Assembly: GCA_905478925.1 (NCBI GenBank)
Contig: CAJQKQ010000012.1
Location: 1-64,000 of the forward strand
DNA from: an uncultured Verrucomicrobiales bacterium
GTDB lineage: Bacteria > Verrucomicrobiota > Verrucomicrobiia > Verrucomicrobiales > Akkermansiaceae
Reading direction: 5' to 3'
DNA length: 64,000 nt
The position numbers and the translations under genes were made by a program. Shown one piece after another: positions 21,920 to 44,945 of this stretch. The notes beneath the pieces were generated by a model. The model worked only from the letters and a program-made list of their open reading frames with translations, did no database searches and was not told where the DNA came from. Every line of letters starts with the position of its first letter. Within the stretch, counting starts at the first letter, position 1.

Positions 21920-23317
21920 ATGAAACTCAAATTTTGTGGCGCAGCGGGAACCACCACGGGTTCACAGCATCTTCTTGAAGTAAACGGCAAGCGCATCCTG
22001 CTCGATTGCGGGTTGTACCAGGGTCGTCGCAAGGACGCGTACGAAATCAACTGCTGTTTCCCACACTACGATCCTAAATCGGTTGATGTTGTCGTCCTCT
22101 CGCACGCGCACATCGATCACAGCGGAAACCTTCCAAACCTTTCCAAAAAGGGTTTCACCGGAACGATCTTTGCGACCCACGCCACCCGTGATCTCTGCCA
22201 GATCATGTTGCGGGATTCAGCACGTATTCAGGAGCACGACATTGACTGGATGAACAAGCACCGCAAGCGCAAGGGGCTTGAGGAGGTGGAACCGCTTTAT
22301 ACCGAGCAGGATGCGGAAAAATGCCTCCGTCAGTTCGTAACCTTGGGCTATGACAGGCCGTTGCAAATTTGCGATGGGGTTGAACTCACTTTTGTAGATG
22401 CGGGTCATATTCTTGGCTCCGCCCAGATTGTGCTCGATGTGAAAGACCAGTCAGATGGGAAGCAGAAACGCTTGCTCTTTTCCGGCGATGTCGGGCGTGG
22501 TGACAGCGAAGTGCTGCGTGACCCCGTTGCGGTGAAGGACGTGGACTTTCTCCTCATGGAGAGCACCTACGGAGGGCGCGAGCACGAGGCACCTCCCGGG
22601 TTCGATACTCATTTCGCGGGTGTCATCAAAGAGGCGGTGAAACGCGGCGGGAAAATTCTCATTCCCGCCTTCGCGGTGGAAAGGACACAGAAGATTCTCT
22701 ACGTGCTAAATGAAATGTTCGTTTCCAAAGAGTTGCCACCCATCCCGGTTTACGTGGACAGTCCGCTCGCCGTCAGCGCCACGGAAATCTACAGGCTCCA
22801 TCCGGATTCCTTCAACGAGGAGGTTTATGCTGCCCTTTTCGAAAAGCAGAATCCTTTCGGCTTTGAAGACCTCACCCTGATCCGCTCGGTGAAGGGCTCG
22901 AAAGCACTGAACGACCTGGAGGGGGTCTCTATTATCATTTCCGCCTCCGGAATGTGTGAAGCCGGGCGCATCATGCACCACCTCCGAAATAACATCGAAG
23001 ATCCGAAAACCACCGTCCTGTTCGTTGGTTATTGCGCGGCACGAACTCTCGGCCGTCGCATCCGCGATGGGGAAAAAGTGGTAAGAATCCTGGGCGATGA
23101 GTTCAACGTGAACGCGAAAATTGAAATCGTGGATTCCTTTTCAGGACATGCGGATCACTCCGAGCTAGTTGATTACTACAACCGTATCGAAGGCGAGAAG
23201 ACCGGAACGTGGCTGATACACGGTGAATCGGACAGTTCCCAGGCTCTGGAAGGTGCCCTGAGGGAGGCCGGTGGCAATGTCTCAGTGGGAGAGCTCGGCA
23301 AGACCGTTGAGTTTTAG
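21920..23317 (+). CDS. Beta-CASP metallo-beta-lactamase ribonuclease
   Basis: The 465-aa protein starts with the MBL fold, motif HAHIDH (His62, His64, Asp66, His67), and has DAGHILGSAQ, FSGDVGR and a beta-CASP insert with LMESTYGGREH, VDSPLAVSATEIY and SASGMCEAGRI. It ends with the SFSGHADHSEL motif. This matches the CPSF/Ysh1-like exonuclease group found in bacteria (COG1236), which process RNA. It is separate from the ligase-associated MBL enzyme at 41885, whose signature differs. Confidence 0.93.
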   Translation: MKLKFCGAAGTTTGSQHLLEVNGKRILLDCGLYQGRRKDAYEINCCFPHYDPKSVDVVVLSHAHIDHSGNLPNLSKKGFTGTIFATHATRDLCQIMLRDSARIQEHDIDWMNKHRKRKGLEEVEPLYTEQDAEKCLRQFVTLGYDRPLQICDGVELTFVDAGHILGSAQIVLDVKDQSDGKQKRLLFSGDVGRGDSEVLRDPVAVKDVDFLLMESTYGGREHEAPPGFDTHFAGVIKEAVKRGGKILIPAFAVERTQKILYVLNEMFVSKELPPIPVYVDSPLAVSATEIYRLHPDSFNEEVYAALFEKQNPFGFEDLTLIRSVKGSKALNDLEGVSIIISASGMCEAGRIMHHLRNNIEDPKTTVLFVGYCAARTLGRRIRDGEKVVRILGDEFNVNAKIEIVDSFSGHADHSELVDYYNRIEGEKTGTWLIHGESDSSQALEGALREAGGNVSVGELGKTVEF

Positions 23318-41884: not shown

Positions 41885-44203
41885 GTGATCGAAGTGGTTT
41901 TTAATCGTGGGCTCTATCTTCCGGAAATGGATTTCTGGCTGGATCCTTGGGATGCGAAGGAGTCTGCCTTCGTTTCCCACGCGCATGCCGATCACTTTTC
42001 CCGACATGAAAGGGCGTTGTGCTCCACGCTCACGGGGCGCCTGCTGCGGGCGCGTTTCAATATGGCCGAGACACGGCTGGACGCACATGAGTTCGGTGCG
42101 ATGATTGAGAGGGACGGTTTTCGGATGCGGATGCTGCCCGCCGGTCATATCGTCGGCTCCGCGATGCTGCACGTAACGCGGAAATCGGACGGCGCGACCC
42201 TGCTATATACCGGAGATTTTAAGGTCAGGCGGGGGAGGACGACGCAACCGGTGAATTTCATCAACGCCGACACGTTGATCATGGAAACCACCTTCGGGCT
42301 ACCGCACCTTGTTTTCCCGGGGCAGATGGAGATCGATGCCATGGTGTTGCGCTTTGTGAACGATGCGATCGCGGACGGGGTGACGCCGGTACTGTTTGGG
42401 TATTCGCTGGGCAAGGCGCAGGAGGCGGTGGCTTTGCTCGCGGAGCACGGGATACCGGTGCTCTCCCATCCCAAGGTCGCCGAGATGACGGATGTCTGCC
42501 GGGAGGCGGGACTGGATCTGCCAGAGCCAGCGGTTTTCGAGGGCTTTGCACTGCCGGGGCAAGCGGTGGTGGCTCCGCCGAATGCAGACCGTACGAAGCT
42601 GCTGCGAGGGCTCAAGGACAAGCGAACCGCGATGCTGACCGGGTGGGCGCTTCAGCCGGGGGCTTTCTACCGCTATCGGGTCGAGCAAATCATCCCGATG
42701 TCTGACCATGCGGATCACGTGGGTCTCCATCAATGCGTGACGCGGGTACGTCCGAAACGGGTTCTGACCGTGCACGGGTATGCGAAGGAATTTGCGGCGG
42801 AATTGCGAGCGAAGGGAATGGATGCTTGGTGTGCGATGGGTGGGGATCAGCTCGAGCTTTCACTTGGTAAAGCCCATGCCTCATCGGTCGGGGCTGCGGC
42901 ACCCAGGCACATTCGCCCGATCTGCCAGTTGGCGGATTTTTCCGATGTCTGCCGTCTGGTCGGGGAGACCAGCAGCAGGGTCTTGAAAGTGGAGTATCTG
43001 GTGAACTATCTTCGCGGCTTGGAGTCGTCGGACGATCTGGCGTGCGCCACCCGCTGGTTCACTGGTGAGGCCTTGCCGAGGCGGGCGGGTAGGCGGCTCT
43101 TGGATATTGAAAAGCCGACAATTAAACGATCGTTGGCTTCTGTTCCGGGTGTGAAGCCGGAGCGATACAAACAGATACTGGCGACTCAGAATGACATAGC
43201 TGGGGCGGGTCGAATTCTATTTAAGGAAATTGCACTTTCACCTAATCCAATTCTTTTGAGTGAGTTATATACATTTTTACTTAAAATGGAGCAAATGGAA
43301 TCAGCTCTCGGTAAGGTTGATTTACTTTCGAAACGTTTGTTTGAACTGCATCCTTCGGAGAGTGAACTTGTGATCAGGTTATTAACAAGGGATCTCCGAA
43401 TTGGGCTCGACGAGGATTTGGTGGAAGAGGCGATCTGTCAGGCATTTCAAGCAGATGCGGGAGAGGTATTCGGAGCAAACATGCTGACCGGCGATCTGGG
43501 GATGACTGCGGTTTTGGCGAGAGATGGTCGGCTCTTGGAGGCGACTCCCACGGCGCTTGTTCCCATCCGGTGCATGCTCGCTTCGGCCTTGGCAGGGGAC
43601 GCCGGAGATGATGGGACGGAGTTCCCCGATCTACCGTTTTCGCCGCCATTCTGGCTCGAACCGAAATACCGGGGGATCCGCGCCCAACTGCATAAGTCGG
43701 GAGATGAGATCGGGTTGTTTTCCCGGGATCTGCGTCCGCTTGATCGGGAGTTTCCGGAGTTGATTGAAGCGGCGGCAAAACTGGAAGGGGATTTTATCCT
43801 GGATGGCGAACTGATTGCTCACGCAGAGGGTCGCAAGTTGGGCTCCGCGGATTTGCAGAAGAGGATAGGAAAGCGCAGGGCGGTGGGAGATCTTTTCATG
43901 GAGACGGGCGAGGGGGCGGATTCCGTTCCGCTCAGGTACGTCGCGTTCGATTTGCTGTGGGCGGATGGGGAAGTCCTGCTAGATCTTCCCTTGGCCGAGC
44001 GGAGAGCGAGGCTCGAGCGGTTGCCACTAGGCGGGATTTTTTCGATCATCAATTTGCTAAGTGCTGATGATGCGCGCGGTGTCGAGACCCACTTCGAGCA
44101 GGCGATCCTCGACGGGCATGGCGGGCTGATCGCCAAGGATCCGGCGAGTATTTACCGCCCCGGCACGAGGGGGGCGGATTGGATCCGGCTCGGGGGGGCC
44201 TAA
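41885..44203 (+). CDS. Fused ligase-associated exonuclease and degenerate ATP-dependent DNA ligase domain
   Basis: The first 330 of 772 residues are the metallo-beta-lactamase ligase-associated exonuclease: GLYLPEMDFWLDP, SHAHADH (31-37), LPAGHIVGSA, YTGDFK, METTFGLP and SDHADH (273-278) are all present, so the nuclease looks intact. After a linker near 335-345 comes an ATP-dependent DNA ligase N-terminal and adenylation domain. Motif I reads EPKYRGIR (592-599): the nucleophile Lys594 is kept, but the invariant Asp is Arg596. Motif III (LDGEL, 639-643) and IIIa (RYVAFDLLW) are normal. Motif IV reads GHGGLIAK with Gly746 replacing the catalytic Glu. The protein stops at DWIRLGGA, so the OB-fold domain is absent. 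Residues about 440-505 are encoded by an AT-rich patch. No Lhr-type helicase or pdeM is adjacent. Confidence 0.9.
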   Translation: MIEVVFNRGLYLPEMDFWLDPWDAKESAFVSHAHADHFSRHERALCSTLTGRLLRARFNMAETRLDAHEFGAMIERDGFRMRMLPAGHIVGSAMLHVTRKSDGATLLYTGDFKVRRGRTTQPVNFINADTLIMETTFGLPHLVFPGQMEIDAMVLRFVNDAIADGVTPVLFGYSLGKAQEAVALLAEHGIPVLSHPKVAEMTDVCREAGLDLPEPAVFEGFALPGQAVVAPPNADRTKLLRGLKDKRTAMLTGWALQPGAFYRYRVEQIIPMSDHADHVGLHQCVTRVRPKRVLTVHGYAKEFAAELRAKGMDAWCAMGGDQLELSLGKAHASSVGAAAPRHIRPICQLADFSDVCRLVGETSSRVLKVEYLVNYLRGLESSDDLACATRWFTGEALPRRAGRRLLDIEKPTIKRSLASVPGVKPERYKQILATQNDIAGAGRILFKEIALSPNPILLSELYTFLLKMEQMESALGKVDLLSKRLFELHPSESELVIRLLTRDLRIGLDEDLVEEAICQAFQADAGEVFGANMLTGDLGMTAVLARDGRLLEATPTALVPIRCMLASALAGDAGDDGTEFPDLPFSPPFWLEPKYRGIRAQLHKSGDEIGLFSRDLRPLDREFPELIEAAAKLEGDFILDGELIAHAEGRKLGSADLQKRIGKRRAVGDLFMETGEGADSVPLRYVAFDLLWADGEVLLDLPLAERRARLERLPLGGIFSIINLLSADDARGVETHFEQAILDGHGGLIAKDPASIYRPGTRGADWIRLGGA

Positions 44204-44217
44204 CGGCACCGGCACGT

Positions 44218-44258
44218 TGTGAACGGTTAGAGAGATGTGAACGGTTAGAGGGATGTGA
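44218..44258. repeat. 18-bp tandem repeat after the truncated ligase
   Basis: TGTGAACGGTTAGAGAGA (44218-44235) is followed by a copy with one change (44236-44253) and the start of a third. It begins 15 bases after the stop codon of the exonuclease-ligase gene. Confidence 0.8.
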
Positions 44259-44306: not shown

Positions 44307-44945
44307 ATGGCCGATATTTCGTATCGCATCATGGCGAGTGCAGGTAAGATTAATTTTCCAAAGAATGGTTTTGAGGCGGTAATCTTCGATTGCGACGGAA
44401 CCTTGGTCGACTCGATGCCGGCGCATTTCGATGCCTGGTGCGAGGCGCTTGCGTCATACGGAGCGGGCGGAATTTTTCGCGAAGATGTTTTCTTCGCAAT
44501 GGGCGGCAGACCCACCCGCGACATCGTCGTGGATCTAAACAGCGAATACGGCCTGAAACTCGACCCCGAGGATATCGCACTGGCGAAGCGCGAGGCGTTT
44601 CTCGGGAAGCTTCATCTCGTGGAGTTCATTGATGAGGTTGCCGATTTCGCAAAATCACTGAGAGGAAAGATGCCGCTAGCGGTCGCGTCCGGCGGTTCCC
44701 GCTACGTGGTGGAGAAAACGCTCAAGCTTCTCGAATGCTCCGATTGGTTCGACGAGGTGGTGACAGCGGATGATGTTTCCAATGGCAAGCCGAACCCGGA
44801 AATTTTCCTGAAAGCGGCCGAGTTGTTGGGCGTGTCGCCCGAGAAATGCCTGGTGATCGAGGACGCACCTCCCGGCGTGATCGCCGCCCAGGCAGCGGGG
44901 ATGCAGGTCATCACCGTGCCGATGCCGCTTTGCAGCCGGGCTTGA
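44307..44945 (+). CDS. HAD-superfamily phosphatase (beta-phosphoglucomutase-like)
   Basis: The ATG at 44307 is used (212 aa); ATG 44331 and a TTG at 44292 are alternatives. Motif I is VIFDCDGTLVDSMPAHF, with the nucleophile Asp and acid/base Asp. Motif II is VASGGS, motif III is the GKPNPEIF lysine, and motif IV is VIEDAPPGVIAAQAAGM. The cap insert after motif I is the small helical type of subfamily IA. It is a phosphatase or sugar phosphate mutase of unknown substrate. It starts about 100 bp after the ligase fusion and is convergent with the next gene. Confidence 0.92.
   Translation: MADISYRIMASAGKINFPKNGFEAVIFDCDGTLVDSMPAHFDAWCEALASYGAGGIFREDVFFAMGGRPTRDIVVDLNSEYGLKLDPEDIALAKREAFLGKLHLVEFIDEVADFAKSLRGKMPLAVASGGSRYVVEKTLKLLECSDWFDEVVTADDVSNGKPNPEIFLKAAELLGVSPEKCLVIEDAPPGVIAAQAAGMQVITVPMPLCSRA

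Follow-up and report, generated by a model that had tools for sequence, protein, structure and literature searches.

The 64,000-nucleotide stretch of DNA analyzed here (the window), from an uncultured Verrucomicrobiales bacterium, codes for a metallo-beta-lactamase (MBL)/beta-CASP exonuclease joined to a LigB-type ATP-dependent DNA ligase half, which by all sequence criteria is almost certainly dead. We consider it likely, at a probability of roughly 0.6, that the protein is a nuclease whose inactive ligase has been kept as a DNA-binding appendage. The fusion itself is ancestral, order-wide, and already published, and is not new; what appears to be new is the repeated reduction of the ligase half within this Akkermansiaceae genus, represented by 73 genomes.

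An exonuclease fused to a defective LigB-type ligase

The gene is a single 772-codon frame at positions 41885 to 44203 of the forward strand, with a GTG start and a TAA stop (44201 to 44203), and profile matches to both domains confirm the exonuclease-ligase frame that an earlier note on this DNA had described (Table 1). The exonuclease domain matches TIGR04122 over residues 7 to 314 (209 bits, with 311 of 326 model positions covered), is a full-length MBL/beta-CASP domain with HxHxDH and the other metal ligands, and has motif residues that are unchanged across 42 sequences. The score is below the curated cutoff of 325 bits; the intact relative in genome G004 scores only 209.8 bits, and the model thus under-calls this clade, its cutoff excluding intact members too. 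We note that a second MBL/beta-CASP-type protein is encoded at window positions 22373 to 22708 (466-aa frame), with a weak relationship to the exonuclease (32% identity over ∼110 residues).

The ligase half has DNA_ligase_A_N (PF04675; residues 350 to 517) and DNA_ligase_A_M (PF01068; residues 587 to 768) domains, both above cutoff, as in bacterial LigB-type enzymes consisting of a DNA-binding domain (DBD), a nucleotidyltransferase (NTase) domain, and an OB domain; the earlier assignment to the LigC/LigD type is corrected accordingly. DNA_ligase_A_C (PF04679) is absent from the protein by Pfam search, in agreement with the OB fold having been reported as missing, and tblastn of the surrounding 13 kb gives no OB match and only a degraded tail; the G004 protein has this domain at residues 789 to 880. 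Motif I (KxDGxR) reads KYRGIR, with the Lys present and Arg in place of Asp, and motif IV carries E746G, both as first noticed, and the two acids are present in all 32 intact relatives. The D596R change involves three base differences, GAT in the relatives being CGG here. Alternative catalytic residues are ruled out by an alignment with no shifted Asp or Glu in either motif. The list of losses was incomplete in one respect, in that the motif V lysines (WxKxK) have also gone. Lys594, Arg599, Glu642, and Phe688 are retained. AF2 with a 42-row homologue alignment predicts a normal NTase fold (mean pLDDT 87), the alignment being dominated by active-domain homologues; single-sequence prediction gives a pLDDT of 34.

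Table 1. Features of the fusion gene and its downstream flank (window coordinates)
Feature	Coordinates	Strand	Evidence
MBL/beta-CASP exonuclease domain (residues 1-330)	41885..42874	+	HAHADH, H88, D111, D274-H275 intact; TIGR04122; 0/58 invariant positions changed; omega 0.03
Ligase DNA-binding domain (DBD) region	42926..43552	+	Pfam PF04675, E 4e-17; branch omega 0.24 vs background 0.11, p=0.034, still <1
Ligase NTase domain (residues 580-766), predicted to lack catalytic competence	43622..44182	+	PF01068, E 3e-34; AF2 pLDDT ~90 over most; omega 0.067
Motif I EPKYRGIR, Lys594 retained, Asp596 to Arg (CGG, 43670-43672)	43658..43681	+	Asp in 32/32 intact relatives
Motif IV GHGGLIAK, Glu746 to Gly (GGC, 44120-44122)	44114..44137	+	Glu in 32/32 intact relatives
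Deletion junction after W766; motif V lysines and OB fold lost; end IRLGGA-stop	44180..44203	+	DNA alignment with G004, G022, and G081
Degraded out-of-frame remnant of OB C-terminal tail, with 18-bp duplication (44216-44250)	44183..44258	+	DNA alignment; pattern search
HAD-superfamily hydrolase, downstream synteny anchor; start codon by analogy with G004	44331..44945	+	Follows fusion in G004 and G022 too

Loss of the OB domain by internal deletion

Motif V was lost at the junction that follows W766; beyond it the DNA alignment jumps to an eroded, out-of-frame OB tail and then to the HAD gene that G004 and G022 also have at this place. Because the stop lies beside this remnant, the OB domain was removed by an internal deletion, and the loss of motif V and the OB domain together is best read as one such event of ∼0.3 kb. 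D596R and E746G are substitutions separate from the deletion. The 18-bp duplication in the remnant occurs nowhere else in the window by pattern search. Orthologues with a normal OB domain, which the earlier note had linked to a possible sequencing error, do exist, but in the window gene the domain was truly deleted rather than hidden by a frameshift: near the gene there is no OB domain in any frame, only the eroded tail. A contig-end artifact is similarly ruled out, as the gene lies within a contig of 64.8 kb and its flanks are conserved.

Repeated reduction of the ligase half within the genus

Relatives across the order code for one chain of ∼900 residues with KYDGIR, the motif IV Glu, motif V, and an OB domain, and this intact fusion (∼898 aa, with the Lys, Asp, and Glu) is also the commonest form in the genus. 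The exonuclease is present in 46 of the 73 genomes of the genus, as 23 intact fusions, 19 reduced forms, and 4 truncated at contig ends. In the nuclease tree the window gene groups with the intact gene of G004 as its sister (support 100/99), and the two are 76% identical overall.

Two other reduced genes have an open NTase frame and no OB domain, with K594E, D596V, E642I, and E746A in G030, and K594E, D596R, and E746R in G075. The nuclease tree separates the window gene, G030, and G075, with three changes forced by well-supported branches, although the bootstrap is not fully settled and the exact number of losses is uncertain. As read from this tree, the losses of the same residues and the OB domain in G030 and G075 are independent of those in the window gene. 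We also note that the window gene (CGG) and G075 (CGC, L135) acquired the motif I Asp-to-Arg change separately from each other. The OB domain of G022 is gone through a different deletion, with the catalytic residues intact. Ten species have the nuclease and DBD only (562 to 629 aa), and three relatives in the genus have the nuclease alone; the G010 gene is split by a frameshift, for which assembly error is possible. G075 is sister to a nuclease-DBD clade (100/100), as expected of an intermediate. Reduction in these forms runs inwards from the C terminus, and the window form is best read as one stage of a stepwise loss.

The remaining reduced form, that of G016, has the nuclease and DBD in one frame with a RuvX (YqgF) domain (L115:3424-5571, reverse strand; PF03652, E = 2e-36). 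Elsewhere in the order, other genera commonly have nuclease-only forms of ∼335 to 350 aa (e.g., G144, G207, G217, and G273).

Selection acting on each domain

Selection was estimated with our own implementation of codon models, using a two-ratio branch model, and the omega values are rough, with near-saturated synonymous sites on some branches. On the window branch the nuclease has an omega of 0.030, and none of its 58 invariant positions is changed. The DBD is somewhat relaxed (Table 1), and the intact sister G004 has a similar value (0.22), so this relaxation is not specific to the window gene. The window NTase (residues 580 to 765) has an omega of 0.067 against a background of 0.064 (p=2.6e-5 versus neutrality). 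The 32 intact proteins share 37 invariant positions upstream of the junction, and the window protein differs from them at just two, D596 and E746; none of 29 noncatalytic invariant NTase sites has changed. Treating the two motif V lysines as catalytic substitutions too (p=0.002) was rejected, as the DNA alignment puts them in the deletion junction; without the junction, catalytic sites are weakly enriched for changes (p=0.04 for the window gene and p=0.015 for the three lineages combined). We note that a branch omega averages over the time before and after a loss, and the low value for the window NTase may mean merely that the loss is recent; maintenance and recent death of this scaffold are indistinguishable from one genome.

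The other lineages extend this pattern. The NTase of G030 is partly relaxed (omega 0.20 versus 0.10, p=0.03) and is 57% identical to that of G032, compared with 74% between the intact G032 and G034, while no relaxation was detected in G075. The NTase frames of G030 and G075 are both long and open, with in-frame changes only, and are 48.5% identical to each other. In the nuclease-DBD clades, DBD omega is 0.13 and 0.11, versus 0.07 and 0.05 in intact relatives, and neutrality is rejected (p<1e-50); the DBD is thus slightly relaxed and far from neutral, and sites conserved in intact proteins often differ in the reduced clades.

Association with Lhr and PdeM

Counting lhr only above the curated cutoff of TIGR04121, the ligase-associated Lhr occurs with 18 of the 23 intact fusions, compared with 2 of the 19 reduced forms (Fisher p=1.2e-5), and in genomes at least 90% complete it accompanies 14 of 17 and 2 of 16, respectively (p=8.6e-5), both values being uncorrected for shared ancestry. 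PdeM has much the same distribution. There are exceptions on both sides: the single-contig genomes G059 and G083 have an intact ligase and no lhr, and G072 and G078 have lost ligase catalysis and kept lhr and pdeM. Ligase loss thus appears to track the absence of lhr, although the link is not strict.

The genome carrying the window gene (94% complete) has no TIGR04121 match over cutoff and no TIGR04123 match, and so carries neither the lhr nor the pdeM of an Lhr-LigB-exonuclease-PdeM system; at the site matching that of the lhr and pdeM remnants in G022 the flanking genes are conserved, with only 68 bp between them. The absence of lhr and pdeM beside the fusion gene, to which the earlier note had drawn attention, is true but has little meaning, since in the lhr-bearing relatives checked these genes lie elsewhere in the genome; the informative fact is their absence from the whole assembly. 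The genome-wide search that had been proposed found no lhr and also ruled out a second ATP-dependent ligase or LigD, as it detected no further ATP-ligase NTase domain; the genome does have an NAD-dependent LigA.

The best candidate for a hidden Lhr was a frame on contig C36 of the same genome, and was rejected because it is the helicase SngC of a Shango-type defense operon. This operon (L068:86-4415) consists of a small open reading frame followed by SngB (E = 3e-163) and SngC (E = 7e-217) by PADLOC models. On contig C119 of G022 (L156:8387-9140) an N-terminal fragment of lhr adjoins a pdeM pseudogene with an internal stop, and these genes are clearly decaying in place. In G004, partial extra copies of the lhr C terminus (C1:131346-132632; 72 to 80% identical) are far from the intact lhr at 3963245, which suggests a former duplicate.

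Relationship to known systems

Exonuclease-LigB fusions are known from Opitutus terrae (OTER_RS15935) and from Dry Valley metagenomes, and the ligase half of one purified Dry Valley fusion sealed nicks (PMC10140301). These share with the window gene the domain order of MBL/RMMBL nuclease, DNA_ligase_A_N, and DNA_ligase_A_M, and the Dry Valley gene likewise lies outside an Lhr operon; in contrast, the tested fusion has DNA_ligase_A_C (PMC10140301), whereas the window gene lacks the catalytic acids, motif V, and the OB domain. Homologous exonuclease and ligase proteins are part of the Lhr-LigB-exonuclease-PdeM repair gene cluster (Ejaz and Shuman 2018, as cited in PMC10140301 and PMC8301817), the role of this repair set being stated as unknown (PMC10140301). 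Compared with that cluster as it is cited there, the window genome is without lhr and pdeM and has the exonuclease and a probably dead ligase in one chain; intact relatives usually carry lhr beside pdeM elsewhere in the genome.

Relatives with solved structures are three-domain ATP ligases of archaea and eukaryotes (PDB 9dfa, 3gde, 2cfm, and 1x9n), with alignments that reach the end of the NTase. The DBD and NTase fold are shared (Foldseek E = 7e-33 for 9dfa; phmmer E = 1e-35 for 3gde), but the window protein has no OB domain, motif V, motif I Asp, or motif IV Glu, and has an exonuclease in front. Retention of a fold with loss of catalytic motifs is also what characterizes pseudoenzymes, the catalytically dead members of enzyme families (PMC10211241). 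A literature search of limited reach, covering the ligase-associated exonuclease, Verrucomicrobia ligase fusions, and dead ligases, found nothing relevant and no pseudo-ligase joined to a nuclease.

Origin and proposed role of the probably inactive ligase

The ancestral state is the order-wide exonuclease-ligase fusion (DBD-NTase-OB), from which, on the branch to this species, a deletion took away the OB domain and substitutions replaced two catalytic acids, in the setting of a genome without the Lhr helicase or PdeM. We infer that nick sealing would no longer be completed and that the ligation of the cell would rest on LigA, with the nuclease presumably staying active. Binding to duplex or nicked DNA was most likely retained by the DBD and the folded NTase scaffold, which would place the nuclease as a clamp or tether, and the related species show earlier and later stages of reduction, ending in the nuclease with DBD or the nuclease alone. 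The strongest evidence that the old ligase piece may serve the nuclease, most simply by binding DNA, is that ten species have kept the DBD after losing catalysis. Weighing against this reading are the weak enrichment at catalytic sites, the mildly raised omega and altered conserved sites of the DBD in the reduced clades, the exceptions to the lhr link, and the chance that the low omega of the window NTase reflects a recent loss.

Plain recent decay would have the OB deletion kill the ligase and leave an unselected NTase scaffold that will vanish, such that only the nuclease matters. This fits the nuclease-only form in three relatives and the raised omega and lower identity of the G030 NTase, and the window omega does not separate the time before the loss from that after it. 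We nonetheless regard it as less likely, as G030 and G075 have kept long open NTase frames with only in-frame changes despite their divergence, the DBD is under clear purifying selection in ten species, and the noncatalytic invariant sites of the window NTase are all unchanged. The earlier note had proposed either decay of the ligase with the nuclease kept or conversion to a DNA-end-binding module. In the genus, ligase catalytic domains have repeatedly been lost while the nuclease stays, and the prediction of the module holds for the DBD of ten species, in which purifying selection persists after catalysis, while it is unproven for the whole ligase part of the window protein; the comparative data partly support a sequence of events that would contain both options.

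Two further explanations are very improbable. A ligase or adenylated-end reader that still functions, using other residues or an OB domain in trans, would be in keeping with the four retained residues and the predicted fold, but conflicts with the loss of the motif I Asp, motif IV Glu, motif V lysines, and OB domain, with the lack of any other ATP-ligase NTase in the genome, and with the loss of the lysine itself in G030 and G075. Removal of the OB domain by an assembly or sequencing artifact is conceivable in a 145-contig draft genome, but the frame is single and open with continuous synteny to the HAD gene, the eroded remnant carries its own duplication, there are two unrelated catalytic substitutions besides, and comparable losses are found in G022, G030, and G075.

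We tentatively extend the reading of an inactive ligase kept for DNA binding. After loss of Lhr and PdeM, the ligase half may have become a noncatalytic, DNA-gripping arm of the nuclease, with the DBD and, for a time, the NTase kept by selection; removal of catalytic charges could even have been favored, given that two lineages independently changed the same motif I Asp to Arg. A dead ligase that steers the exonuclease in this way would be a genuine pseudo-ligase. The pairing of ligase loss with helicase loss points to a ligase step that depends on Lhr and to a nuclease with a separate, retained duty. One genus thus provides a natural experiment in which the fusion is intact, without its OB domain, catalytically dead, or reduced to the nuclease with or without the DBD, and offers matched natural constructs for testing the role of each part.

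C-terminal tails of the nuclease-DBD proteins

Seven of the ten nuclease-DBD proteins (L109, L110, L113, L117, L118, L119, and L120) end in a short hydrophobic tail, such as QLPLVD, QLPFSL, QLSFHPPI, AELPLD, ATLSLD, or DLGVF, preceded by a variable linker that is often rich in Pro and Ala. These tails resemble the bacterial sliding-clamp-binding motif, with 0.14 in 10 expected by composition for a pattern that was picked after viewing the tails. A similar LPFxPP stretch is present just ahead of motif I in intact members of the genus, and the tail motif may therefore be inherited.
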